Both the position numbers and the translations under genes were made by a program. A stretch of 64,000 nt of DNA from Brevirhabdus sp. (GTDB lineage Bacteria > Pseudomonadota > Alphaproteobacteria > Rhodobacterales > Rhodobacteraceae), in the NCBI GenBank assembly GCA_024637315.1, contig JAGXFH010000025.1:1-64000 (forward strand), read 5' to 3'. The notes beneath the pieces are model-generated. The model saw only the letters and a program-made list of their open reading frames with translations, was not told the DNA's origin and searched no databases. Positions within the stretch are counted from its first letter, which is position 1; each line of letters starts with the position of its first letter. Shown in pieces: positions 12,171 through 63,197 of the stretch.

Positions 12171-14150
12171 CTACAGCTGGATTCGGAAGAGGCTGAAGCC
12201 GTCATCGTTCGATCCGGCTTCCTCCATCGTCACGCCCTTGACGTCGCCGATATAATCCTTGGCCTTGGGGCCGGTCTCGAAAATCACCGAGGTGCCGGGC
12301 AGCGGCGCGAAGGTCCAGTTGGCGTCAGCCGAGGGGTTGATCGTGCCCTGTTCGACGATGTAGCGCACGATCACGTCGCGGTTGGTGTCGGGCGCCTCGA
12401 AGATGATCGTGTCGCCCTTGGCGCCAGGGAAATCGCCGCCGCCGCCGGCGCGGTAATTGTTGGTCGCCACGACGAATTTCATCTCTGGCGTCACCGGCTG
12501 GCCATCGTGCTGGAGGTTGACGATGCGATTCGCATCGGGGTTAAGATCCTCACCCTTGGGGCCGTATTTCGACGGCTGCGACAGGTCGATCTGGTAGGTC
12601 ACGCCGTCGATCACGTCGAAGTTGTAGCTGGGGAAGTCGGGGTTCAGAAGCGGCTGGTCGGCCGCGCCGGGTGTGATCTGGTTGAACATGCCAGCCGAGC
12701 GTTCCAGCCAGTCCTTGAGTTGGCCGCCATCGACAAGCACCGCGCGCACGGTGTTGGGGTAGAGGTAGAGATCGGCGACGTTCTTGATCGCCACGTCGCC
12801 GGCGGGAACATCGGTGTAGTATTCCGCGCCACCCCGGCCCCCGGCCTTGAACGGCGCGGCGGCAGAGACGATGGGCAGGCCCTCATACTCGGTGCCCTTC
12901 ATCATTTCCTCAATGTACCATTTCTGCGCGATCGAGACGATCTGCACCGACGGGTCATCAGCGACCAGCGCGAAGTAGCTGTGCAGCGGCGCCGAGGTCT
13001 TGCCGACCGCGCGGCGGATATATTCGAGCGTGGCTTCATGCTCGGCGGCGACGGAGTCGAGCACCGCTTGATCGCTTTCCACCAGCGCCGCGATCGACCG
13101 GTCCTCGTTTCGCTTCGAGATCGGCCGGGTTTCGACCGAATGCGTGACGACCTTCCATTCGTTGCCGTCGCGTTCCAGCATCAGGTCTATGACCCCAAGA
13201 TGCGAGCCCCAGAAGCCGCCCATCGTGGCAGGCTTGCCGTGGATCGTGCCGGTGGCCACATCGACGCCGGCATAGTCGGCATAGGTGTCGGACGGGAAGA
13301 CAAGGTGACTGTGACCGGTCATGACCCCGTCGATACCCTCGACAGCGGCCAGGGGCACCGAGGCGTTTTCCATCCCCTCGCTATGGTCGGCGGCACCGAT
13401 CCCGGAATGCGACAGCGCGATGATCACATCCGCGCCCTGCTCTCGCATCTGCGGCACATACGCCCTGGCGGTCTCGACGATATCGCGGGCGCTGACGTTG
13501 CCCTCGAGATGGCGGCGGTCCCAGGTCATGATCTGCGGTGGAACGAAGCCGATCACGCCGATCCGGATCGGATGTTCGGTGCCGTCGCCGTCAATCACCG
13601 TGCGGTCAAGGATGACGTAAGGCGGCAGCAGCGTCTCGTCGCTGGTCGGACTGGCGCCGAGGTTTTTCACCACATTCGCCGAGACAATCGGGAAGTCGGC
13701 GCCGGCGACGGATTTCATCAGGAAATCGAGGCCATAGTTGAACTCGTGGTTGCCAAGCGTCGAGGCTTCGAACCCGACGGTGTTCATCGCTGCGATGATC
13801 GGATGGATGTCGCCTTCTTTCATCCCGCGCTCATAGGCGATGTAGTCGCCCATCGGGTTGCCCTGCAGAAAATCGCCATTGTCCAGCAGCATCGAGTTCG
13901 TCGCCTCGGCGCGGATATCGGCGATATGAGCGGCGGTGCGTGCCAGACCGACCGTGTCGACCGGCTTGTCGGAATAATAGTCATACGGATAGACATGAAC
14001 GTGCAGGTCAGTGGTTTCCATGATCCGCAAATGAGCCTGGTTCGTGGCGGCGCGGGCCGAAAATGGATGCAGTGCGATCAAGGACGCCCCTGCGATCGTA
14101 CCGGACAGAAAGCCCCGGCGGTCAAGATGCGAATGTGTGCGGAATGCCAT
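12171..14150 (-). CDS. cpdB: 2',3'-cyclic-nucleotide 2'-phosphodiesterase / 3'-nucleotidase (CpdB type)
   Basis: This 659-residue periplasmic enzyme would hydrolyse 2',3'-cyclic nucleotides and 3'-nucleotides. The metallophosphoesterase domain shows METTDLHVHVYPYDYY, LDNGDFLQGNPM, LGNHEFNYG and MTGHSHLVFP. A 5'-nucleotidase C-terminal domain follows (KFVVATNNYRAGGGGDFPGA). The ATG at 14150 gives an N-terminus with a twin-arginine motif (DRRGFLSG), a hydrophobic stretch and an ARAA cleavage site, suggesting Tat export. An open frame extends 347 codons further upstream but is only antisense to nudC. CpdB relatives are usually bifunctional. Confidence 0.9.
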   Translation of the reverse strand: MAFRTHSHLDRRGFLSGTIAGASLIALHPFSARAATNQAHLRIMETTDLHVHVYPYDYYSDKPVDTVGLARTAAHIADIRAEATNSMLLDNGDFLQGNPMGDYIAYERGMKEGDIHPIIAAMNTVGFEASTLGNHEFNYGLDFLMKSVAGADFPIVSANVVKNLGASPTSDETLLPPYVILDRTVIDGDGTEHPIRIGVIGFVPPQIMTWDRRHLEGNVSARDIVETARAYVPQMREQGADVIIALSHSGIGAADHSEGMENASVPLAAVEGIDGVMTGHSHLVFPSDTYADYAGVDVATGTIHGKPATMGGFWGSHLGVIDLMLERDGNEWKVVTHSVETRPISKRNEDRSIAALVESDQAVLDSVAAEHEATLEYIRRAVGKTSAPLHSYFALVADDPSVQIVSIAQKWYIEEMMKGTEYEGLPIVSAAAPFKAGGRGGAEYYTDVPAGDVAIKNVADLYLYPNTVRAVLVDGGQLKDWLERSAGMFNQITPGAADQPLLNPDFPSYNFDVIDGVTYQIDLSQPSKYGPKGEDLNPDANRIVNLQHDGQPVTPEMKFVVATNNYRAGGGGDFPGAKGDTIIFEAPDTNRDVIVRYIVEQGTINPSADANWTFAPLPGTSVIFETGPKAKDYIGDVKGVTMEEAGSNDDGFSLFRIQL

Positions 14151-14366
14151 CTGATTATCCCCCCTGTTTTCGGAAATCTGAAAATAGCTTACGCCCCTTC
14201 CCAATACATCTTGACGGCGTTTTGCCACGTCGGCGATTTCTTGCCAATACCTCAAAAGTTGATGAAGCATCAATGAAGCACCTTTTGGGTTGCACGTTCC
14301 GCCGCGCTGCGGCCGCGTTTGCAATGGCGGCAGCCGCATGGCAGACAGGCCGAAAACGGATAGCGC

Positions 14367-15332
14367 ATGAAACTTGCCGAGACGGTCACTTTTGGCGGCT
14401 CCGCGCTGGACCGGGCAGCACATCTGCGCGGCGACCGCGACAGTATCGCGAACCTTCTGGCCAAGCCGACCACCCGGGCGCTGGCGGTCTGGCGCGGCAA
14501 GCCCCTGATACACGGTACCGATCACGTTGCAGCGGCCTGGCTGGCGCTTGGCAACCCGGTTTTTCGACTGGCCGACGAGGCCCCGACGTTCCTGGGACTT
14601 GGCGAAACGGGTGCGCATTTCGCCTATGACATCTCGGGTTGGGAGCCGCAGGAGGTGCCCGACACACTTGGCGCATTCTTCGATCCCAGCGAACAGCGCC
14701 GCCCCGGCCTGCCCGAAGATCACCGCTTTGCCGAACTGCGCAGCGTCATGACCCGGCTGACCCCACGCGATGCCGAACTGGTCGCGACCGCCCGCGCCAT
14801 CCTGGGCTGGCACGAAAGCCACGGTTACTGCGCCAAATGCGGTTGCAAGACCGTGGTCGCGCAGGCCGGATGGCAGCGCGATTGCCCGGCCTGCGGCGCG
14901 CACCATTTTCCGCGCACCGACCCCGTCGTCATCATGTTGATCACCTACGGCAACAGCGTGCTTCTGGGCCGATCGCCGGGCTGGCCCGAGGGCATGTATT
15001 CGTTGCTGGCCGGCTTCGTCGAGCCCGGCGAAAGCATCGAAGCCGCGGTCCGCCGCGAGGTTTTCGAAGAGGCCGGGATCACCATCGCCGAGGTCGGCTA
15101 CCTCGCCTCGCAGCCCTGGCCGTTCCCATCTTCGCTGATGCTGGGCTGTTCCGGGCGTGCGACGAGCGACCAGATCGTGATCGACCCGCACGAGATCGAA
15201 GAGGCATTATGGGTCAGCCGGGAAGAACTGATGCAGATCTTTGCGGGCACGAACAGCCGCATAAAGCCGGCTCGCGGGGGTGCGATCGCGCATTTTCTGT
15301 TGCGAAACTGGCTTGCGGACAGGCTCGATTAA
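14367..15332 (+). CDS. nudC: NAD+ diphosphatase NudC
   Basis: This 321-residue Nudix hydrolase cleaves NADH/NAD+ to NMN(H) and AMP and can decap NAD-RNA. The central zinc ribbon has CAKCG and CPACG (about residues 154-176). The Nudix box begins GFVEPGESIE and continues with REVFEEAGI. The NudC-specific motif SQPWPFPSS is present just after it. The start at 14367 is an ATG with no strong ribosome site. The gene diverges from cpdB over a 216-base region in which I see no clear operator. Confidence 0.95.
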   Translation: MKLAETVTFGGSALDRAAHLRGDRDSIANLLAKPTTRALAVWRGKPLIHGTDHVAAAWLALGNPVFRLADEAPTFLGLGETGAHFAYDISGWEPQEVPDTLGAFFDPSEQRRPGLPEDHRFAELRSVMTRLTPRDAELVATARAILGWHESHGYCAKCGCKTVVAQAGWQRDCPACGAHHFPRTDPVVIMLITYGNSVLLGRSPGWPEGMYSLLAGFVEPGESIEAAVRREVFEEAGITIAEVGYLASQPWPFPSSLMLGCSGRATSDQIVIDPHEIEEALWVSREELMQIFAGTNSRIKPARGGAIAHFLLRNWLADRLD

Positions 15333-43466: not shown

Positions 43467-44119
43467 GCCGGCTTGCGGGCCGACAGGATCAGGTTGTTGG
43501 CCGGCATCTCGATCACGTCGACGGGGTGCAGCCAGGCCCCGGCTTGCCATGCCTGCACGGTCTGGAACGCCTTGTAGCCGATCGACGGATCCTGCGCCGC
43601 AAGGTCTTGATGGAACCTGAGGTCGCCGTCGCTGGCGAATCCGTCACCCCGTTTGAACGGGCCATAGACCAGCAGGATGCCATTCGGCGCCAGCAAGCGG
43701 CCAGCTTCGGTCACGCAGGTGCGGGCCTCACTTTCTCCGATCAGATGCAAGAGGTTCGAGAGGAAGATCAGGTTGGGCGGATCGAACTTCTCGGACCAAC
43801 CCGGCACCGTCGCGTCAAGCCGGATCGGCGGGCGGACATTGGCCAGATCGGTGGTCCAGGCTGCAATGCTTGCCAGCCGCGCCTCGTCGATATCGGTCGG
43901 CTGCCAGATCAGTGCGGGCAGGGCGGTGGCGAAAGCTGCGACATGCTCGCCTGTGCCGCTGGCGATTTCGAGGGCCGTTCCGCGTACGGGGGCGACCCGA
44001 CGGAGCACCTCTAGAATCGGCTGGGCGTTGCGTGCGGCAGAGGGGGCATGGATCCGCCCATCGACGTCCGACACGGCAATTTTGGCTGTATCGGGCAGGT
44101 TCAATCGCCTTGGCGTCAT
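43463..44119 (-). CDS. DUF938 SAM-dependent methyltransferase-like protein
   Basis: This 218-residue protein has a Rossmann SAM-binding motif (ALEIASGTGEHVAAFA, about residues 48-63) and the family segments WQPTDID, FLSNLLHLIGE and LLVYGPFKRGD. DUF938 proteins are methyltransferase-like with unknown substrates. The ATG at 44119 was taken. A GTG 11 codons upstream is a less likely alternative. Confidence 0.83.
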   Translation of the reverse strand: MTPRRLNLPDTAKIAVSDVDGRIHAPSAARNAQPILEVLRRVAPVRGTALEIASGTGEHVAAFATALPALIWQPTDIDEARLASIAAWTTDLANVRPPIRLDATVPGWSEKFDPPNLIFLSNLLHLIGESEARTCVTEAGRLLAPNGILLVYGPFKRGDGFASDGDLRFHQDLAAQDPSIGYKAFQTVQAWQAGAWLHPVDVIEMPANNLILSARKPA

Positions 44120-44163
44120 GTTTTGGGTTTCCCGGATATTTGCGTTAGGCACTGATTTAAAAA

Positions 44164-44181
44164 GGTATTTTCAGAAATACC
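44164..44181. repeat. Short perfect hairpin in an A+T-rich divergent region
   Basis: GGTATTT and AAATACC pair over TCAG. It lies in the A+T-rich interval between the DUF938 gene and the divergent Hint-domain gene. It may be an operator for either gene. Confidence 0.4.
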
Positions 44182-44240
44182 GTAAAAAGGAGAATGAATC
44201 CACTCATTGTCCCAATTTCGGACACAGTTTCTTAGAATTG

Positions 44241-44271
44241 TTGACGTCAGGATGGGGGGCGCACTTAAGAA
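44241..44271 (+). promoter_or_regulatory. Possible promoter of the Hint-domain gene
   Basis: TTGACG (44241-44246) and TTAAGA (44265-44270) are 18 bases apart, ending 15 bases before the ATG at 44286. The -10 match is moderate and the leader would be very short. Confidence 0.35.
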
Positions 44272-44285
44272 TACGAGGTGGGCGC

Positions 44286-44927
44286 ATGAGTTACTTGAAG
44301 AAGATCAAGGGCGATGCTGACGTCATCGTCGGCTTTGCCGGCGGCATTGTTGAAGGCGCGAACGTTCGCACGCCGTGCGGTCCGAGGCGAGTGGAACTGG
44401 TGCGCCCGGGTGATCTGATCGTCACCCGAGACACCGGGCTGCAGCCGGTGCGAATGGTGTGGAAGCGCGAGCTTTCCGCGACGCAGATCGCCGTGCATCC
44501 CGATCTGGCGCCAATCCGACTGAAACCCCGCGCCTTGGGACCGATGATGCCGCAACGCGATCTGTGTCTGGCCCCGGATCACCGTGTACTGGTGCCCGGC
44601 TACAGATTGGCTGGCGTGGACCAGAAGCGCGGTTGCCTTATCGAAGCACGCGAACTGGCCGGGTCAAGCGATGGCGCCTATGTAGACCGCTCGGCCGAAA
44701 TGGTGCGCTGTTTCACGCTGGTGTTCGACAGTCATCAGATCTTCTGCGTGAACGGCTTGCCGGTGGAAAGTTTTCTGCCGACCGCCAGTTCGGTAGCCGG
44801 TCTCAGCGAAGAATTCCGTGACGCGCTGGTTCAGCGCTTCCCGCAACTGCGCCGCGAACCGAACGCCTACCCGCCCGCCGAATATACCGCGCTGAACGGC
44901 ATCGAATACCTGACGGCACAAGCCTGA
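44286..44927 (+). CDS. Stand-alone Hint-domain protein without the catalytic cysteine
   Basis: This 213-residue protein carries a Hint_2-type hedgehog/intein fold: VRTPCGPRRVELVRPGDLIVTRD (about residues 26-48), LAPDHRVLVPG with the conserved His (about 97-107) and HQIFCVNGLPVESF (about 150-163). The Cys that normally opens the domain, a few residues before the first TP, is missing (the stretch reads GGIVEGANV), so autocleavage is unlikely. The ATG at 44286 follows GAGGTG. The frame is open much further upstream, but that part is antisense to the DUF938 gene. Confidence 0.8.
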   Translation: MSYLKKIKGDADVIVGFAGGIVEGANVRTPCGPRRVELVRPGDLIVTRDTGLQPVRMVWKRELSATQIAVHPDLAPIRLKPRALGPMMPQRDLCLAPDHRVLVPGYRLAGVDQKRGCLIEARELAGSSDGAYVDRSAEMVRCFTLVFDSHQIFCVNGLPVESFLPTASSVAGLSEEFRDALVQRFPQLRREPNAYPPAEYTALNGIEYLTAQA

Positions 44928-51777: not shown

Positions 51778-52713
51778 TCAGCTTACCCTGTCCCTTTTGG
51801 CCTCTGTCCGGGCCTTGTGTTCAAGCAGATCCGCCGCCACGCCGATGGCGATGGCCTGCGGGTGTTTGCCGAGGTCCGGACGCCCGATCGGGCAGCGGAT
51901 CCGGGCGATCTGCGTCTCGGTATGGCCGAGATCCCGCAGCCGTTTGCGGAACCGCGCCCATTTGGTGCGGGATCCGATCAGCCCGGCCGCCGCAAAGCCG
52001 TGGCCGAGCAGGCGGTGGCAGAGTTCCAGATCGAGCGCATGCGAATAGGTCAGGATCAGGTGTTCGGCGTCGGCGGGGGCATAGTTCACCAGATCGGCGG
52101 GGTTGGCCGCGATCAGCTGGGTCACACCCGGCGCGAGGGTTTCGGGGAACCGGTCCGGCGCGGTGTCGATCCAGGTCAGGTCGAACAGGTCGAGCGGTGC
52201 CAGCACCGATATGATGGCCCGACCGACATGGCCGGCGCCGAAGATCCAGAGCGGCCTGCGCGGCACCGATACGGGTTCCAGAAGCCAGTTCTCGGCAAAG
52301 GTCAGGCCGCTGGCCTGGCGAGCGTTGCGGACCTGTTGCAGCCGGCGCTGGATGACCAGCGGCGGCTCTGCCGCGCGGCCGAGATTGCGCAGGACATAGG
52401 GTTCGGTCAGGGCCGCGACCCGCGCGCTGTCGTAGATCTCGGAGACCAGCACCACCGCGCCGCCGCAGCATTGCCCGAGGCCGGGACCGAGCGGCACCCG
52501 GTCGACGCGGTCCACGGTCAGGCCGCGCGCCCGTTCCGCGGCTTCGAATTCCAGCGCGCCGCCGCCGATGGTGCCGCTTTGCCCGCCGGACCAGACCAGC
52601 ATCGCCGCCCCCGGTTCGCGCGGCACCGAGCCCGCGACCTCGGCGATCACCACCCGGATGACGCGGCCGTGTTCGGTGACGGCGTCGCGCAGGGCTTGCA
52701 GATCGAAGCTCAT
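51778..52713 (-). CDS. xdhC: Xanthine dehydrogenase accessory protein XdhC
   Basis: This 311-residue chaperone binds molybdenum cofactor, promotes its sulfuration and inserts it into XdhB. The N-terminal XdhC/CoxI domain has VAGSVPREPGAAMLV and LGPGLGQCCGGAV. The C-terminal Rossmann-like domain contains IFGAGHVGRAI. The ATG at 52713 begins [12 protein letters not shown] and overlaps the xdhB stop by 4 bases. It is not needed in the final enzyme. Confidence 0.94.
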   Translation of the reverse strand: MSFDLQALRDAVTEHGRVIRVVIAEVAGSVPREPGAAMLVWSGGQSGTIGGGALEFEAAERARGLTVDRVDRVPLGPGLGQCCGGAVVLVSEIYDSARVAALTEPYVLRNLGRAAEPPLVIQRRLQQVRNARQASGLTFAENWLLEPVSVPRRPLWIFGAGHVGRAIISVLAPLDLFDLTWIDTAPDRFPETLAPGVTQLIAANPADLVNYAPADAEHLILTYSHALDLELCHRLLGHGFAAAGLIGSRTKWARFRKRLRDLGHTETQIARIRCPIGRPDLGKHPQAIAIGVAADLLEHKARTEAKRDRVS

Positions 52714-55112
52714 GTCTTGACCCGGTCGAGTGTGGTCAGGATGCATTCCGCGGTGGCGGGTGCGTCGAGCGCCGGATAGCTGTCGCCGCAGGCGGCGATC
52801 GCATCCGACAGCGCCATCAGCGCCGAGATCCCGAGCATGAACGGCGGTTCGCCAACCGCCTTGGAGCGGTAGATCGTGTCCTCGCGGTTGCGCCCGTCAT
52901 GCAGCGCCACGTTGAAGATGTCGGGCCGGTCGGAACAGGCCGGGATCTTGTAGGTCGAGGGCGCATGGGTGCGCAGGTTGCCCTTGTCGTCCCAGACCAG
53001 TTCCTCGGTTGTCAGCCAGCCCGCGCCCTGCACATAGCCGCCCTCGATCTGGCCGATGTCGATGGCCGGGTTCAGCGATGTGCCACAATCGTGCAGGATG
53101 TCGGTGCGCAGGATCCGGTTCTCGCCGGTCAGGGTGTCGATGACGCATTCGGTCACCGCCGCGCCATAGGCGAAATAGTAGAACGGGCGGCCCTTGCCGG
53201 CGACCCGGTTCCACTCGATCTTCGGGGTCTTGTAATAGCCGGTGGCCGACAGGCTGACGCGGTTTTCATAGGCGAGTTTGACGGCCTCGGCGAAGGTCAA
53301 CACCTCGCCGCCGACCTCGACCCTGTTGTCGGCAAAGCGGACATCGCGGGTCTGGTAACGCTCGCCGAGGAATTCGGCGATGCGGTCGCGGATCGTGTCG
53401 CAGGCGGCCTTGACCGCCATCCCGTTCAGGTCCGAGCCCGAGGAGGCGGCGGTGGCCGAGGTGTTCGGCACCTTGGCGGTATCGGTCGCGGTGATCTTGA
53501 CCGATGCCAGATCGACGCCGAACGAGGCGGCGGCCACCTGCGCAACCTTCTGGAACAGGCCCTGGCCCATTTCGGTGCCGCCGTGGTTCATGTGGATCGA
53601 GCCGTCCTGATAGACATGCACCAGCGCGCCGGCCTGGTTGAGATGGGTCAGCGTGAAGCTGATGCCGAATTTCACCGGGGTCAGCGCGATGCCCTTCTTC
53701 AGCACCTCGTTCTGCGCGTTCCACTCCGCGACGGCCTTGCGCCGCGAGCGGTAGTCCGAGGTCTGCTCCAGCCTGTCGCAGAGGTGGTTCAGGATGAAAT
53801 CCTCGACCGCCATGTGATAGGGCGTGGTCTGGGCATCCTTGGGCGGCTGCGGCGCCCGTCCGGCGGTCGCGGGTGCGCCGCGAGAGGTCAGGTCGGCATC
53901 GCTGTCGGCGGGCACCGGGCGGCCTTCGTTGATCGGGGCGGGTCCGGCTTCGGCGCCGGCGCTACCGGTCGCATCGGCATAGAAATTCGCCCGCCGCACG
54001 TCATAGGGATCGCGCTCCATCGCATGGGCGATGTGATCAAGCACCCGCTCGATCCCGAGCATCCCCTGCGGCCCGCCGAAGCCGCGATAGGCGGTGGCGG
54101 ACTGGGTGTTGGTCTTCAGCCGGTGGCTCTCGATCCGGGCGGCGGGCAGGTTGTAGGCATTGTCGGCATGCAGCATCGCGCGGTCGGCGACCGGGATCGA
54201 CAGGTCCAGCGCCCAGCCGCAACGGGCATATTGCCGGAACTCGATGCCGGCGATGCGGCCGTCGTCGTCATATCCGACATCGTATTCGATGCGGAAATCG
54301 TGGCGCTTGCCGGTGATGATCATGTCGTCGTCGCGGTCGTAGCGCATCTTGCAGGGCCGCCCGGTCAGCCGCGCGGCCACGGCGCAGCCGACGGCCAGAG
54401 CGTTGCCCTGGCTTTCCTTGCCGCCGAAACCGCCGCCCATGCGCCGGGTCTCGACCCGCACGGCGTTCATCGGCGCGCCGATCGCCTCGGCGACCTTGTG
54501 CTGGATCTCGGTCGGGTGCTGGGTCGAGGAATGCACCAGCATGTCGCCGGCTTCCTGCGGCAGCGCGAGCGCGGCCTGGCCTTCGAGGTAGAAATGTTCC
54601 TGCCCGCCCATGGTGATGCTGCCCTGCAGGCGGTTCTTCGCGCCCGCCAGCGCGGCGGCGGCGTCGCCCTTGGACCAGACGATCGGGCCATCCTCGAACC
54701 GGCTGTCGGCGGCGAGGGCGTCCTCGATCGTCAGGATCGCGGGGCGTTCGGCATAGTCGATCTTGCCCAGACGGGCCGCCTTGCGGGCGGCAAGGTGGGT
54801 TTCGGCGACAACCAAGAAGATCGGCTGGCCGACATAATGCACCGTGCCCGTGGCCAGCAGGGGTTCGTCATGCACCGAGGGCGAGACGTCATTGGCGAAG
54901 GGCAGGTCGTCGGCGGTCAGGACCGCGACGACGCCGGGCGCGCGGCGCACCGCATCAAGCTCGATCGCGGTAACCTCGCCGCGCGCGACCGTGGACAATC
55001 CGAAGGCCAGATGCAGGCAGTTCGCGGGCACCGGAATGTCATCGACATAGCGGGCCTGACCGGTCACATGCAGCGGCGCCGCGTCATGCGGCAGGGGCTT
55101 GGCGACAGTCAT
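52710..55112 (-). CDS. xdhB: Xanthine dehydrogenase, molybdenum-binding subunit
   Basis: This 800-residue large subunit carries the aldehyde oxidase/xanthine dehydrogenase a/b hammerhead ([19 protein letters not shown]) and the Moco-binding domains. These include [36 protein letters not shown] and [14 protein letters not shown], with the catalytic Glu near the C-terminus ([10 protein letters not shown]). With XdhA it oxidises hypoxanthine and xanthine to urate. The ATG at 55112 lies 113 codons inside a longer open frame and overlaps the xdhA stop. Confidence 0.95.
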
Positions 55113-56476
55113 GGGGCGACCTCCAGCACGCGGGTCGGCTGGCCCTGATCTTCGAGGAAATAACGCATCAGCAAGTTCTGCGCGCTCTTCATCCTGTAGC
55201 CGGCCGAGGCGCGCATGTCGGACATCGGCGTGAAATCCTCGGCCATGGCCGCCATGGCCGCCGTCACGGTTTCGCGGGTCCAGGGCTGTCCGGCCAGCGC
55301 GGCCTCGGTGGCTGCGGCGCGTTTCGGGATGCCGGCCATGCCGCCATAGGCGATCCGGGCCTCGGTGACCTTGCCGGCTTCGGTGCGGATGCTGATGCAG
55401 CCGCAGACGGCGGAAATGTCCTGATCGAAGCGCTTCGTCAGCTTGTAGCATTTCAGCCGGTCGGGCTGGCGGGGAAAGCTGACGGCCTCGACGAATTCGC
55501 CCGGCGCGCGGTCCTGCTTGCCGTAGTCGAGAAAGAAGTCCTGCAGCGGCAGGTCGCGGCGGCTGTCGCCCTTGCGCAGGTGCAGCGTTGCCCCCAGCGC
55601 GATCAGCGCCGGCGGGCTGTCGCCGATCGGCGAGCCATTGGCGATATTGCCGCCGATGGTCGCGGCATTGCGGACCTGGACCGAGCCGTAGCGGCGCAGC
55701 ATCTCGGCGAAATCGGGGTGCAGCGGGGCGATGGCTTCCATCAATTCGGTCACGCTGGCGCAGGCGCCGATGCGGACGGTGTCGTCGGTGATTTCGACGG
55801 ACTTGAGATCATCGACGCGCGCCAGGAACGCGACTTCTTTCAGCTCGTCGAGGCGCTTGGTCACCCAGAGCCCGACATCCGTCGCGCCGCCGATCAGGAC
55901 GGCATCGGGATGCGCGGCGTACCATTCGGCGAGCTCATCGGACGAGGTGGGGATCGCGATGTCGCTGGCGCCGGCGTCGAGCCTGGCCAGATCCTCGGCC
56001 ATCCAGTCCGGCACGGGCGCGCCGGCCGCGGCTTCTGCGGCGCGGATGATGGGCGCATAGCCGGTGCAGCGGCAGAGGTTGCCGGCAAGCTGATCGTCAT
56101 GGTCGCTGCGGCCGTTCTTGTGAGCCGCGGCCATCGAGACGATGAAGCCCGGCGTGCAGAAGCCGCATTGCGAGCCGTGATGCTCGACCATCGCCGCCTG
56201 TACCGGATGCATCTGGCCGTCGGGGCCGGAAATCCCCTCGACGGTGCGCACCGCCTTGCCATGCAGTTGCGGCAGGAACAGGATACAGGCATTCACCGCG
56301 CGGCTGCCGCGCTGATCGGAGACGATCACCGTGCAGGCCCCGCAATCGCCCTCGTTGCATCCCTCCTTGGTGCCTTTCAGCCCGCGAATTTCGCGCAGCC
56401 AATCCAGCAATGTCCGGGTCGGGGCCTCCCCCTCGACGCGAACCGTCTCTCCGTTCAGAAGAAACTCCACTCCCAT
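55109..56476 (-). CDS. xdhA: Xanthine dehydrogenase, Fe-S/FAD subunit
   Basis: This 455-residue small subunit has an N-terminal [2Fe-2S] ferredoxin domain ([13 protein letters not shown]) and a second [2Fe-2S] helical domain ([17 protein letters not shown]). An FAD domain ([14 protein letters not shown], about residues 195-208) and a CO-dehydrogenase-type C-terminal domain follow. It transfers electrons from the Moco site to NAD+. The ATG at 56476 was chosen over a start 9 codons upstream. It is first in the xdhABC-importer operon. The 217 bases to the divergent dnaE contain its promoter, which I could not pinpoint. Confidence 0.95.
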
Positions 56477-56693: not shown

Positions 56694-59600
56694 ATGAAGA
56701 GCTCTCCCCGATTCATCCATCTGCGCGTTCATACCGAGTACTCGCTTCTGGAAGGGGCCGTGCCGGTCAAGAAGCTGGCCGGATTATGTGCCGTGAATGC
56801 GATGCCTGCGGTGGCCGTCACCGATACGAACAACATGTTCGCAGCATTGGAGTTTTCGGTCGCGGCAAGTGCTTCGGGTGTGCAGCCGATAATCGGCTGT
56901 CAGGTCGATCTGGCCTATGATCCCGCTGGACCCGGAGAGCGCGCGCGACCGCCTGCGCCGGTGGTGCTTCTGGCACAGAATGAGGCCGGGTATGGAAACC
57001 TGCTCAAGCTGAATTCCTGCCTCTATCTCGATTCGGGCGGCGAGTTGCCGGTGGTGACCGTCGAAGAGCTGACAGCCTATTCCGATGGGCTGATCTGCCT
57101 TGCGGGCGGGCCGGACGGGCCGGTGGGTCGGTTCTTGCAGCAGGGGCAGGCGCCGAAAGCACAAGCGTTGATGACGCAGCTGGCGGCGATTTATCCGGGA
57201 CGGCTTTATGTCGAGTTGCAGCGCCATCCGACCGAGTCGGGACAGCCCGAGAATGAACGTCTGACTGAACGCGGATTCGTTGAAATGGCCTATGCCATGG
57301 ACTTGCCCTTGGTGGCGACCAACGACGTCTATTTCCCCAAGCCGGACATGTATGAGGCCCATGACGCTCTGATCTGCATCGCGCAGGGCGCCTATGTCGA
57401 CCAGCAGGACCCGCGCCGACGGCTGACCGCGCAACACTACTTCAAGACACCCGAGGAAATGGCGACGCTGTTTGCCGACCTTCCCGAAGCGATTGAGAAT
57501 ACGGTCGAGATTGCTCGCCGCTGCGCTTTCGCCGCGCAGAAACGTGACCCGATCCTGCCAAAATTCGCGGATGACGAAGTTCAGGAACTGCGGCGTCAGG
57601 CGGTGCAGGGTCTGAAGGACCGGCTGGCGATCATCGAACCTTCGGCCCCGGTCGAGGAATACGAGAAACGTCTGGAATTCGAGCTTGGCATCATCGAGGG
57701 GATGGGCTTCCCGGGTTATTTCCTGATTGTGGCTGACTTCATCAAATGGGCCAAGGAACATGATATTCCGGTCGGGCCGGGACGAGGGTCGGGCGCCGGG
57801 TCGTTGGTGGCCTATGCGCTGACGATCACGGATCTGGACCCATTGCGCTACTCGCTGCTGTTCGAACGCTTCCTCAACCCCGAGCGGGTGTCGATGCCGG
57901 ATTTCGACATCGACTTCTGCATGGATCGCCGGGAAGAGGTGATCCAGTACGTTCAGGAGAAATATGGCCGCGACAAGGTGGCCCAGATCATCACCTTTGG
58001 CGCGCTTCTGTCGAAAGCCGCGGTGCGTGACGTGGGCCGGGTCTTGCAGATGCCTTACGGACAGGTCGACCGGCTGTCGAAGATGATCCCGGTCGAGGGC
58101 GTCAAGCCCGTCAGCATCGAGAAGGCGCTGGCCGACGAGCCGCGGCTGCGCGAAGAGGCCAAGAACGAAGAGGTGGTCGACCGGCTCTTGAAATACGGCA
58201 TGCAGATCGAGGGGCTGTTGCGTAACGCCTCTACCCATGCCGCCGGTGTCGTCATCGGCGACCGGCCGCTCGATGAACTGGTGCCGCTCTATCAGGATCC
58301 GCGGTCGGACATGCCGGCCACCCAGTTCAACATGAAATGGGTCGAGGCGGCGGGGCTGGTGAAGTTCGACTTCCTTGGTCTGAAGACCCTGACGGTGATC
58401 CAGAACGCGCTGGATCTGCTGAAACAGCGCGGTGTCGAGATCGACATCAGCCTGATCCCGCTGGATGACGAGAAAACCTACCAGCTTTATGCCAGCGCCA
58501 AGACGGTCGCCGTGTTCCAGGTGGAAAGCTCGGGCATGATGGATGCGCTCAGGCGGATGAAGCCGACCTGTATCGAGGACATCGTGGCGCTGGTGGCGCT
58601 CTACCGCCCCGGCCCGATGGAAAACATTCCGACCTATTGCGAGGTCAAGAACGGGCTGCGCGAGCTGGAATCGATCCATCCCCTGATCGACCACATCCTT
58701 GAGGAAACCCAGGGCATCATCGTCTACCAGGAACAAGTGATGGAGATCGCGCAGGTCATGGCGGGCTACTCGCTGGGTGGCGCTGACCTGCTGCGCCGGG
58801 CGATGGGCAAGAAGATCGCCGAGGAGATGGCAAAGGAGCGTCCGAAATTCATCGAGGGCGCCAAGGCCAACGGGGTCGAGGCGAAGAAGGCCAGTGAGGT
58901 ATTCGACCTTCTGGAGAAGTTCGCCAATTACGGCTTCAACAAATCCCACGCAGCGGCCTATGCGGTGGTCAGCTACCAGACCGGCTGGCTGAAGGCGAAC
59001 CACCCGGTCGAATTCATGGCCGGGGTGATGAACTGTGACATCCATCTGACCGACAAGCTGGCCACCTATGCCGAAGAGGTCCGCCGCGGTCTGGATATCG
59101 AGATTGTACCGCCCTGCGTGAACCGGTCCGAGGCGACGTTCAGCGTGTCAGAGGGGCGGGTGGTCTATGCGCTTGGGGCGCTGAAGAATGTCGGTACGGA
59201 TGCGATGCGGCTGCTGACAAGGTTGCGCGCCGGCAAACCGTTCGTGAATCTTTACGATTTCGCCCGCCGCGTGGATTTGAAGCGCATCGGCAAGCGACCG
59301 ATGGAAATGCTGGCGCGTTCGGGCGCGTTCGACCAGCTTGACGCGAACCGCCGTCGGGTGTTCGAAAGCCTTGATGTGCTGGTCAACTATTCAGCCGCAA
59401 TCCACGAGCAGCGCAATTCCGATCAGGTCTCGCTCTTTGGCGAGGCGGGGGACGACCTGCCCGAACCCCGCCTGTCACCGGTCGAGGACTGGCTGCCGAA
59501 CGAACGCCTGGCCGAGGAACACAAGGCGGTCGGCTTCTATCTCTCGGGTCATCCGCTTGACGACTACATGACGCCGTTGAAGCGTAAGGGCGTGATGACC

Positions 59601-60140
59601 TTGGCAGAGGTTGCGGCGCAGGCGGAACGGGCACCGCATGTCGCCAAGATGGCCGGTGCGATCAGCGGTCGGCAAGAGCGCAAGTCGGCCCGCGGCAACC
59701 GCTTTGCCTTCGTGCAGCTGTCCGATCCGACGGGGCTCTACGAGGTCACGGTCTTCTCTGACACTCTTGAGGCGGCGCGTGAGCATCTGGAAACCGGAGC
59801 CAACGTCGTCCTGACGGTCGAGGCGACGATGGAGTCCGAACAGTTGAAGTTGCTGGCCCGGTCGATAGTGCCGATCGACGCCGTGGCGGCTCAAGTCGGC
59901 GGCATGGGTCTGAAGATATTCGTCGATGAGGAGTCCGCGATTTTCAGTGTCAAGTCCTTGCTGGATCGGATGGCCGGCGCTTCCGGCGGGCGGGGGCGCG
60001 GCCCACTGACGTTTTGCGTTTCGGATCGCATATCGGGTGCTGAATATGACATCACCCCCGCTGCGGAATTCGCGCTGAATCCTCAGATCAAGGGCGCGAT
60101 CAAGTCGCTGGGCGGGGTGGTGATGGTCGAGGATATGTGA
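56694..60140 (+). CDS. dnaE: DNA polymerase III alpha subunit
   Basis: This 1148-residue replicative polymerase has an N-terminal PHP domain (FIHLRVHTEYSLLEGAVPV). The catalytic palm has GRGSGAGSLVAY and the Asp pair in MPDFDIDFCMDRR (about residues 400-412). The fingers follow, then a helix-hairpin-helix region and a C-terminal OB fold (GAISGRQERKSARGNRFAFV, about 985-1004). The length is normal for DnaE1. The ATG follows TTTAGGA. It stands alone, diverging from xdhA. Confidence 0.97.
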   Translation: MKSSPRFIHLRVHTEYSLLEGAVPVKKLAGLCAVNAMPAVAVTDTNNMFAALEFSVAASASGVQPIIGCQVDLAYDPAGPGERARPPAPVVLLAQNEAGYGNLLKLNSCLYLDSGGELPVVTVEELTAYSDGLICLAGGPDGPVGRFLQQGQAPKAQALMTQLAAIYPGRLYVELQRHPTESGQPENERLTERGFVEMAYAMDLPLVATNDVYFPKPDMYEAHDALICIAQGAYVDQQDPRRRLTAQHYFKTPEEMATLFADLPEAIENTVEIARRCAFAAQKRDPILPKFADDEVQELRRQAVQGLKDRLAIIEPSAPVEEYEKRLEFELGIIEGMGFPGYFLIVADFIKWAKEHDIPVGPGRGSGAGSLVAYALTITDLDPLRYSLLFERFLNPERVSMPDFDIDFCMDRREEVIQYVQEKYGRDKVAQIITFGALLSKAAVRDVGRVLQMPYGQVDRLSKMIPVEGVKPVSIEKALADEPRLREEAKNEEVVDRLLKYGMQIEGLLRNASTHAAGVVIGDRPLDELVPLYQDPRSDMPATQFNMKWVEAAGLVKFDFLGLKTLTVIQNALDLLKQRGVEIDISLIPLDDEKTYQLYASAKTVAVFQVESSGMMDALRRMKPTCIEDIVALVALYRPGPMENIPTYCEVKNGLRELESIHPLIDHILEETQGIIVYQEQVMEIAQVMAGYSLGGADLLRRAMGKKIAEEMAKERPKFIEGAKANGVEAKKASEVFDLLEKFANYGFNKSHAAAYAVVSYQTGWLKANHPVEFMAGVMNCDIHLTDKLATYAEEVRRGLDIEIVPPCVNRSEATFSVSEGRVVYALGALKNVGTDAMRLLTRLRAGKPFVNLYDFARRVDLKRIGKRPMEMLARSGAFDQLDANRRRVFESLDVLVNYSAAIHEQRNSDQVSLFGEAGDDLPEPRLSPVEDWLPNERLAEEHKAVGFYLSGHPLDDYMTPLKRKGVMTLAEVAAQAERAPHVAKMAGAISGRQERKSARGNRFAFVQLSDPTGLYEVTVFSDTLEAAREHLETGANVVLTVEATMESEQLKLLARSIVPIDAVAAQVGGMGLKIFVDEESAIFSVKSLLDRMAGASGGRGRGPLTFCVSDRISGAEYDITPAAEFALNPQIKGAIKSLGGVVMVEDM

Positions 60141-60480: not shown

Positions 60481-62109
60481 ATGGCAAAGGACAGAAAGCA
60501 GCCCAGGCCCAAGGCCGAGACGCCCAAGGGCTTCCGCGACTATTTCGGCGCGGAAGTGGCCGGGCGCAAGGCCATGCTGGACCAGATTGCGGAGGTTTAC
60601 CATCGCTACGGCTTCGACGCGCTGGAAAGTTCCGCCGTCGAGACCGTCGAGGCGCTGGGCAAGTACCTGCCCGATGTCGACCGCCCGAATGCCGGGGTCT
60701 TCGCCTGGCAGGAGGATGCAGAGGGCGACAAGCCGGGCGATTGGCTGGCGCTGCGCTATGACCTGACGGCACCCCTGGCGCGGGTCTATGCGCAGCACCG
60801 CAACGACCTGCCCACCCCCTATCGCCGCTATGCGATGGGGCAGGTCTGGCGCAATGAAAAGCCGGGGCCGGGGCGATACCGCCAGTTCTATCAATGCGAT
60901 GCGGATACCGTCGGATCGGCAAGCATGGCCGCCGATGCCGAGATCTGCGCGATGCTCTGTGACACGCTGGAGGCGGTAGGCATCCCGCGCGGCGATTACA
61001 TCGTGCGGGTGAATAACCGAAAGGTATTGAATGGGGTGCTTGAGACGATGGGTCTCGACGATGACGAAAAGCGCGCGGCGGTGCTGCGAACCATCGACAA
61101 GTTCGACAAGGTGGGCGAAGCGGGCGTACGCGAACTTCTGGGCAAGGGGCGGCTGGATGTTTCGGGAGCCTATATTGATGGAGTTGGACTGAGCGATGCG
61201 CAGGCCGAGCCCGTAATAGCGTTCTTATTAGCAGGCAAAGTGGTTGATCGGCGATTGATCGACGCATTGGCTAGCGCGAAAGATATGCCGAAGGGAATTC
61301 AAGCGCACATCCAAGCTGCCAGAGATGCTGGTGATATCTATGCTGCAAAGGGATTGGGTATTGAAGCCGAGAGCTTTGCAGTTCGTAACCGCATGATGCT
61401 CAACCACCTCCAAGAAATCATTGGAGAGTCCACCGTCGGCGCGGAAGGAGTGGATGAGTTGAAGCAGATTGTAAACTTGCTGGACGCCCAGGACTACGGC
61501 TCCGATCGCATCGTTATCGACTCCTCGGTCGTCCGCGGCCTCGGCTATTACACCGGACCGGTTTTCGAGGCCGAGCTGACCTTCGAGATCACCGACGAGA
61601 AGGGCCGGCCGCGGCAGTTCGGCAGCGTGGCCGGCGGGGGTCGCTATGATGACCTCGTGAAACGCTTTACCGGGCAGGAAGTGCCGGCCACCGGGATTTC
61701 CATCGGAGTCGACCGGCTCCTGGCCGCGCTGCATGCCAAGGGCCGGATCGAGGCCACCGAGGCGGGACCGGTGGTCGTCACGGTGATGGACCGCGACCGG
61801 ATGGCCGATTATCAGGCGATGGTTGCAGAGTTGCGCAATGCCGGCATCCGCGCCGAGGTCTATCTGGGCAATCCGAAGAATTTCGGCAACCAGTTGAAAT
61901 ATGCCGACAAGCGCAACGCGCCGGTCGCGGTGATCGAGGGCGGCGATGAAAAGGCCAAGGGCGTCGTGCAGATCAAGGATCTGGTCCTTGGCGCCCGGAT
62001 CGCCGCCAGCGCCACGCATGACGAATGGAAATCGCAGCCGGCGCAGTTCGAAGTGCCGCGGGCGGAATTGGTCGGCCAAGTGCGCCGCATCCTGACGGGC
62101 GAAGGCTGA
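60481..62109 (+). CDS. hisS: Histidyl-tRNA synthetase
   Basis: This 542-residue class II synthetase has motif 1 near [17 protein letters not shown], motif 2 ([26 protein letters not shown]), the His-specific [12 protein letters not shown], motif 3 ([10 protein letters not shown]) and the HisRS anticodon-binding domain. The length is above the usual 420-500 because of the insertion between motifs 2 and 3. Bases of about 61160-61480 inside that insertion have clearly lower G+C and codons such as TTA that the rest of the gene avoids. It overlaps hisZ by 1 base. Confidence 0.95.
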
Positions 62110-63197
62110 TGCCGGGCAAGGCCGCGGTGCGGGCCGAAGCCGAACGGCTTCAGGCCGGGTTTCTCGCCGCCGGGGCCGTGGCGGTCGAGACCGGCATCCT
62201 GCAACCCGCCGACACGCTGCTGGACCTTTACGGCGAGGACATCCGCGCCCGGGCCTTCGTTACGCATGACCCGCTGAACGGCGAACAGATGCTGCGGCCC
62301 GACTTCACCGTGCCAGTGGTGCAGATGCATATGCAGGGCGGCGCCGAGCCCGCGCGCTATACCTATCTGGGCGAGGTCTTCCGCCGTCAGGAAACCCCGG
62401 AGCAAAGCGCCAGCGAATATCTTCAGGTCGGCTACGAGGTGTTCGACCGCACCAACCCCGCCGCCGCCGATGCCGAGGTCTTTGCGCTCTTCGCCGAGAT
62501 CCTCGCGCCGCTGAAGCTGCGCGCCACGACCGGCGATATCGGCATCCTGATGGCCGCGGTCGAGGGGCTTTCGACCACGGACCGGCGCAAGGCGGCCCTG
62601 TCGCGCCACATCTGGCGGCCGCGCCGCTTTCGCGCGCTTCTGGACCGCTTCGGCGGCCGCAGCGCGGTGCCGGAAACCCGCGCCGCCCTGATGGCCGAGG
62701 CCGACCCGCTGGCCCGCGCCGTGCCGCTGATCGGCCTGCGCAGCCGCGACGACATCGAGGACCGGATCGCGGCCCTGCGTCAGGATGCGGCCGAACCGCC
62801 GATCAGCAATGCAGAGGTCGAGCTTCTGGACGATATCCTGAAGCTGCGCGCCAAGAGCCCCGCAGCGCTTGAACATCTGCGCGACCTCTCTGTCGATCTG
62901 CCCGCGATCAGCCATGCCGTCGCCCGGATGGCGCGGCGTCTGGATGCGCTGGACCAGCGCGGCATGGATGTCAGCGATCTGGATTTCGAGGCCAGCCACG
63001 GCCGCACCTCGATGGAATATTACGATGGCTTCGTCTTCGGTTTCACCGCTGAAACGCGCCCCGACCTGCCGCCCGTGGCCACCGGCGGGCGCTATGACGC
63101 GCTGACCCGGGTGCTGGGGCAGGGCCACTCGATCCCCGCCGTCGGCGGCGTCATCCGGCCCGGGCTGACCCTGCAATTGCAGGAAGCCGCGGCATGA
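62109..63197 (+). CDS. hisZ: ATP phosphoribosyltransferase regulatory subunit HisZ
   Basis: This 362-residue HisRS paralogue lacks tRNA charging ability and forms the hetero-octamer with short HisG. It keeps the class II fold: LRPDFTVPVV, YTYLGEVFRRQ, EYLQVGYEVF, and FGFTAETRPDLPPVATGGRYD. The ATG at 62109 overlaps the hisS TGA, and its stop overlaps hisG by 4 bases. It allows histidine feedback control of the first pathway step. Confidence 0.93.
   Translation: MPGKAAVRAEAERLQAGFLAAGAVAVETGILQPADTLLDLYGEDIRARAFVTHDPLNGEQMLRPDFTVPVVQMHMQGGAEPARYTYLGEVFRRQETPEQSASEYLQVGYEVFDRTNPAAADAEVFALFAEILAPLKLRATTGDIGILMAAVEGLSTTDRRKAALSRHIWRPRRFRALLDRFGGRSAVPETRAALMAEADPLARAVPLIGLRSRDDIEDRIAALRQDAAEPPISNAEVELLDDILKLRAKSPAALEHLRDLSVDLPAISHAVARMARRLDALDQRGMDVSDLDFEASHGRTSMEYYDGFVFGFTAETRPDLPPVATGGRYDALTRVLGQGHSIPAVGGVIRPGLTLQLQEAAA

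Follow-up and report, generated by a model that had tools for sequence, protein, structure and literature searches.

The gene for histidine–tRNA ligase (HisRS), hisS, in the window, that is, the whole analysed stretch of 64,000 nucleotides, is probably a mosaic. A block in its middle differs in history from the remainder of the gene, and inside this block lies an insert of low G+C content that is absent from the short forms of the enzyme (Table 1). The first-pass annotation had described a compositionally foreign stretch in this gene; the window is one case of a pattern found across the host family, and the tract that was replaced extends beyond the low-GC stretch itself. Unlike an ordinary allele from a sister lineage, the insert adds a hypervariable part to the enzyme. 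As an overall explanation, we favour a hypervariable, mostly helical tip of the HisRS insertion domain that would pass between genomes through homologous recombination and would probably owe its diversity to an antagonist binding HisRS; we hold the chances of this explanation as a whole to be about even.

Table 1. Features of the hisS region, in window coordinates.
Feature	Coordinates	Strand	Basis
hisS, histidine–tRNA ligase, 542 aa	60481..62109	+	open frame; NCBIfam TIGR00442, 382.9 bits against a cut-off of 286.75
Low-GC3 stretch, codons 226-302	61156..61386	+	two-changepoint fit on GC3
Hypervariable insert, about residues 253-307, absent in short forms (9 residues)	61237..61401	+	alignment of 57 long and 39 short forms; AlphaFold2
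Upstream shoulder, residues 211-252, alignable protein	61111..61236	+	at codons for unchanged amino acids, long-form GC3 is 0.107 and 0.184 lower
Downstream shoulder, residues 308-342, alignable protein	61402..61506	+	at codons for unchanged amino acids, long-form GC3 is 0.178 and 0.125 lower
Replaced block, roughly residues 181-340 (edges located to about 20 residues)	61021..61500	+	identity to congener G001 0.29-0.65 here and high on both sides; block tree
dnaE (presumed name), context, no sign of replacement	56694..60140	+	upstream; 89% identical to G001
hisZ (presumed name), context, no sign of replacement	62109..63197	+	downstream; 88% identical to G001

Composition and ancestry of the window's hisS

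The frame of hisS continues unbroken through the low-G+C segment, as the first-pass annotation had stated, with no stop inside its 542 codons, and a search of the genome that contains the window (E 0.001 or better) gave no other complete hisS. The hand counts of that annotation are exact, with 124/240 G+C (51.7%) at 61201-61440 and 39/60 (65%) at each of 60901-60960 and 61561-61620. Its remark that the segment uses codons avoided elsewhere in the gene holds for TTA, which is confined to the block (two against none), and fails for GTA and AAA, each of which is found three times elsewhere in hisS. In a two-changepoint fit, GC3 is 0.43 within codons 226-302 and 0.81 outside, with a likelihood ratio of 44.2, the maximum over 60 codon permutations being 25.6. 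When open reading frames of at least 200 codons were compared across the window plus some 390 kb elsewhere in its genome (306 listed, 304 testable), the internal GC3 dip of hisS ranked first of 304 (z -6.86). By dip rank and changepoint fit alike, the tract differs in composition from the rest of the gene.

Dips at 12171-14906, 43677-44927 and 52710-55451 of the window, which were first taken as further cases, sit upstream of family matches; since the matches in these three ORFs start downstream of the dips, the dips are read as over-extended ORF starts. The ORF at 43677-44927 (+) carries a Hint_2 domain (PF13403) at residues 225-369, and its listed start is probably too far upstream. The remaining next-strongest dips, judged from their translations alone, read as over-extended ORF starts or non-coding DNA. 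No sigma-70-type promoter was found inside hisS.

The segment lies 3' of motif 2 and 5' of the GLGYYTG motif, in what we take to be the HisRS insertion domain, which is where the earlier annotation had placed it. Around both motifs the long forms are conserved: R132, R134, Q135 and F136, presumably motif 2, and G353-G359, presumably GLGYYTG, are invariant in a 59-row alignment.

The history of the block was read against G001, the single congener compared with the window (searches of the genus added one further species). In steps of 20 residues, the HisRS proteins of the two are 0.85-1.00 identical at residues 1-180, 0.29-0.65 at 181-340 and 0.75-1.00 thereafter; inside the block, identity is 0.44-0.65 at 181-260 and 0.29-0.60 at 281-340, with few aligned residues at 241-300, and G001 has 9 residues where the window has 56. 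The genes on either side, which we take to be dnaE and hisZ, are 89% and 88% identical between the window and G001; in G377, the genome with the nearest insert, they are 75% and 66% identical to the window's. It is G377 and G173 that the window resembles at residues 201-240, with identities of 0.90-1.00.

Trees of 44 proteins tell the same two histories. The core tree joins the window with G001 (SH-aLRT 91.8, not starred), whereas the block tree shows a two-way split with a support of 100 that puts them on opposite sides, and forcing them together in it costs 75 log-likelihood units (p-AU 1.3e-67, 44 rows). The suggestion of gene conversion or domain replacement from another lineage is thus supported, the tree of the tract contradicting that of the core for this pair. 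G001 also lacks the low-GC pattern, its GC3 being 0.64 around the site and 0.71 in the rest of its hisS. We therefore regard it as very probable that the block was replaced in one of the two, the window or G001. Outside the host family, nine readable proteins have 9-18 residues at the site and a block that starts with SGD, like that of G001 (an ORF was obtained at 14 of 26 loci), so the window's copy, and not that of G001, is probably the changed one. In the lineage of the window, an insert-bearing block would accordingly have entered a hisS whose remainder follows the genus.

Long and short forms in the host family

The window's HisRS found matches in 380 of 394 host-family genomes, a set with nearly one genome per genus. 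At least 57 of the 380 carry long forms, which have 31-68 residues where short forms have 9. These 57 comprise 56 single-piece matches that cross the insert, together with G011; the matching pieces of G156 and G023 are cut off at the far end. Among the matches listed, other pieces mostly end near residue 252 and, in one search, resume near 307. G011 has such a broken match yet possesses a 32-residue insert, so that 57 is a lower bound and more long forms may hide among the broken matches. A partial gene (L098, in G258) whose insert matches the profile of the largest insert group, A2, was left out, as it gave no ORF. The 57 long forms were extracted together with 39 short ones, which were taken partly from the best-scoring two-piece matches and are therefore enriched for the block type of the window. 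The nearest named loci, in Sagittula salina and a Roseovarius, are both short. In the wider class, the full HisRS matched 42 of 289 genomes, 38 of them outside the host family and with no insert-crossing piece among the matches listed.

Long and short forms are interspersed on a core tree of 96 rows, where the state changes 25 times, against an average of 30.6 and a minimum of 24 when states are shuffled; as 2.2% of 500 shuffles give 25 changes or fewer, the state keeps some signal of the tree. Both available congener pairs (G000/G001 and G035/G679) differ in form. When residues 209-251 are compared with the nearest row of the core tree, to which core identity is 0.88-0.89, their identity is 0.859 for short-short pairs (n=17), 0.662 for long-short pairs (n=14) and 0.692 for long-long pairs (n=43).

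Residues around 226-238 come in two sharply distinct block types, SGDFT..GAGL and another ten-letter pattern, which are also seen among short forms. The two types change 12 times on the 96-row core tree. Since they vary among short forms too, some recombination in hisS may be independent of the insert.

The long forms share the composition of the window's insert. GC3 is lower in the insert than in the rest of hisS (means 0.515 and 0.806) in 56 of the 57, all except L061, and it recovers within about 30 codons on each side; at the same site in the 39 short forms, no dip was seen. In the shoulders, the comparison was limited to codons at which the nearest short form has the same amino acid. There, GC3 drops by 0.107 at residues 211-230, 0.184 at 231-252, 0.178 at 308-322 and 0.125 at 323-342 (Wilcoxon p 1.5e-6 to 7.9e-4), with no drop at residues 181-210 (-0.006) or in the core (+0.023, p 0.25). 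As GC3 is lowered where the amino acids are unchanged, their turnover alone is insufficient as the cause. Fourfold-degenerate sites are almost flat in composition in the insert (A 0.21, C 0.27, G 0.24, T 0.28) and strongly skewed in the core (A 0.04, C 0.47, G 0.41, T 0.08), and the GC3 of the insert follows that of its host weakly (r 0.32, slope 0.47). The simplest reading is that the low GC3 was brought in with imported, AT-richer DNA. Another possible source of graded low GC3 is a weakening of codon selection next to a site under strong selection.

Homologous recombination is the favoured route for such an import. Acting through the conserved parts of hisS on both sides, it would exchange as much as about 480 bp as a cassette, swapping a short form for a long one or one long form for another. 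The incoming DNA could be provided by transformation or by gene transfer agents; those of Rhodobacter capsulatus move fragments of about 4.5 kb that reportedly integrate by allelic replacement (PMC9690577).

Diversity of the insert and its possible causes

By BLAST, the 57 inserts fall into groups of 15, 8, 2, 2, 2 and 2, with 26 singletons, and the insert nearest to the window's, that of G377, is 59% identical. The profile of the largest group (A2) has matches in 24 of 365 host-family genomes, all 24 within hisS by coordinates. Fourteen of these are members of A2 and ten are non-members (E 1.7e-13 to 0.0019); the profile includes a few flanking residues, which may help weak matches, and none of the analysed short forms is among the 24. 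Judged by their sequences, the matched inserts are taken as one fast-diverging group. Against 385 genomes of the class, A2 gave two matches, namely the window and a chance-level match (E 0.01, stop inside); it missed the long form of G318 in that set and hence does not catch every insert.

Neither the insert region of the window nor any of 10 inserts scanned out of the 57 has a Pfam match. The window's insert has no match in viral contigs or phages, the A3 group none in viral contigs, and its member L037 none in phages or plasmids; no donor of the window's tract was found in these searches. Two PHROG matches for L038 (E 0.046 and 0.41), as well as one PADLOC match for L041 (E 0.035) among 10 inserts scanned, were read as chance.

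Searches with the complete enzyme reach further. The full HisRS protein matched 18 phage records, all at less than 60% identity. Matches were also seen in 27 plasmid records, 10 of which come from genera that we assign to the host family; match lengths of 1473-1479 bases in these 10 fit short forms. The full-length profile matched a single viral contig, IMGVR_UViG_3300025759_000462 (L127), whose HisRS shares about 70% identity with that of the window in the best segment. Its match of 1479 bases is too short for a long form, and the contig is perhaps host DNA.

A mobile element lodged at a hot spot, be it an intein, a palindromic in-frame element or the remnant of a small transposon, would account for the fixed site, the low G+C content and the patchy distribution, but we find it scarcely credible. 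The flanks change along with the insert, the profiled group has no copy outside hisS in the 365 host-family genomes, and 31-68 residues are too short for an intein, which usually exceeds 100; nor was a Hint or other Pfam match found in the 10 inserts scanned. The window, L037 and L040 have no direct or inverted repeat. In L041, a 14-nt inverted pair (2317-2330 and 2472-2485, 93% complementary) surrounds the region of the insert.

In the AlphaFold2 model of the window's HisRS (59 rows), the insert is predicted to consist of helices at 251-268, 271-282, 286-292 and 296-314, with block pLDDT values of 82-96 over residues 251-320; the model as a whole is middling (mean pLDDT 80.5, pTM 0.75). The best 50 Foldseek matches of this model are HisRS entries and one HisRS-like GCN2 domain. 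In the model of L037, which belongs to another group, framing helices at 246-256 and 281-299 enclose a middle without helix or strand, with a confidence of about 50 at 261-270. As the framing helices are kept and the middle differs, the frame looks shared between the two models and the tip appears to vary. Long forms would thus have two extended insertion-domain helices linked by a tip that differs between genomes.

Fourteen within-group pairs are 38-67% identical in the insert and 68-90% in two core regions; insert dN exceeds core dN by a factor of about 1.6 to 11. Insert dS is saturated in 13 of these 14 pairs; the finite pair, L002/L032, has a dN/dS of 0.30 in the insert and of 0.10 and 0.19 in the core regions. 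These values show that inserts evolve fast, and they do not amount to positive selection.

Such divergence might reflect near-neutral growth of a loop, in which extra residues are tolerated, gained and lost under relaxed constraint and relaxed codon usage, and are spread by ordinary recombination. The fast divergence, the range of lengths and the low-confidence loop predicted in the middle of the L037 insert agree with this, as does the fact that no function was found. We nevertheless consider it rather unlikely: the insert of the window is predicted as ordered helices, dN/dS is low in the sole measurable pair, and a relaxed loop alone would not be expected to lower GC3 in the flanks at unchanged amino acids. 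The insert is also open in frame in 57/57 genes, although the extraction itself required an open frame.

The HisRS insertion domain contacts tRNA in other HisRS enzymes, and the insert, which is predicted to be ordered in the window, sits within it. The insert might therefore tune the enzyme, by way of tRNA-His recognition, stability or contacts with the dimer or with partners, and long alleles would then spread as useful variants. This appears improbable, as such diversity is not obviously required by tuning and the tRNA-His genes do not differ in overall identity. In 40 of the 57 long-form genomes and in 40 short-form genomes, one of the latter without a match, identity to the window's tRNA-His is 92.1% (n=40) and 92.3% (n=39), respectively (Mann-Whitney p 0.72), a measure that is blind to a change at a single position.

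In the window's genome, the first base of tRNA-His (L150:1498-1574, -) is preceded by T rather than G, and the CCA end by A. An unusual tRNA-His is typical of alphaproteobacteria, and these ends are in line with it. Next to the complete tRNA-His gene, two genomes carry a second, partial copy that covers 45-46 bases of its 3' part, at G001:C82:27313-27358 and G151:C6:257932-257976; these copies may mark the ends of elements integrated at tRNA-His.

We return to the diversified tip. With the core conserved and the tip diversifying, a binder of the tip, such as a phage protein, a toxin or another inhibitor, might be at work, and rare variants would escape it. Where a conserved protein has a variable part that can be exchanged, its partner is often a changing one, and toxins of synthetases are known; on these grounds, an antagonist that binds HisRS is tentatively favoured for the diversification step, at somewhat less than even chances; as the driver of tip diversity it is speculative. 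That neither a binding partner, nor a linked gene, nor a donor was found in this analysis counts against it. The same anatomy would suit a HisRS that acts as a sensor, whose tip recognises a protein of an invader and stops charging, so that an essential enzyme brings about abortive infection. The results do not separate the sensor from the antagonist, but the former has no direct support, the 10 inserts scanned being without a PADLOC defence match apart from the one at E 0.035, and we judge it very improbable. More broadly, it is possible, if doubtful, that HisRS is the front of an arms race in which the exchangeable tip decides whether a phage protein, a toxin or an inhibitor can bind and block the enzyme (or lets the enzyme sense an invader), with rare tips being imported from an AT-richer pool of alleles.

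Essential tRNA synthetases are usually viewed as conserved housekeeping enzymes, and a folded part that is swapped and diversified would imply unrecognised selection on translation. If this is true, the tip offers a handle for finding a phage or toxin factor directed at HisRS. The hisS trees of the host family combine two histories, which calls for caution when the gene is used in phylogeny.

Comparison with known systems

HisRS, mosaic genes and exchangeable hypervariable domains are each already known; a family-wide exchangeable hypervariable part in this essential enzyme was not met with in the titles and abstracts of open-licence PMC papers. The closest known form is the short histidine–tRNA ligase (TIGR00442) of the host family and other alphaproteobacteria, which is the same enzyme, with a core about 88-89% identical to the nearest analysed relative. 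It differs from the long form in having 9 residues at the site (9-18 in the nine outside-family proteins), instead of 31-68, and in showing no marked GC3 dip.

Rickettsia palindromic elements likewise add about 50 residues in frame to conserved proteins, but they are palindromic and repeated in many genes, whereas the HisRS insert was found in hisS alone where searched, and the window has no palindrome. HsdS target-recognition domains and surface antigens are exchangeable hypervariable domains that, like the HisRS tip, combine a conserved frame with an exchangeable variable part. They are directed at DNA targets or the cell exterior; HisRS works in translation, in the cytosol.

HipA-type kinase toxins inactivate tRNA synthetases, which can accordingly be targets of antagonists; the targets named in two abstracts are the glutamyl and tryptophanyl enzymes (PMC7029023, PMC6581861). 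Mosaic genes made by homologous recombination, as with gene transfer agents (PMC9690577), resemble the present case in that the history of a tract differs from that of the rest of the gene. What sets it apart is that the tract affected, which belongs to an essential tRNA synthetase, is fixed, recurs across a family and holds a hypervariable insert of low GC content.
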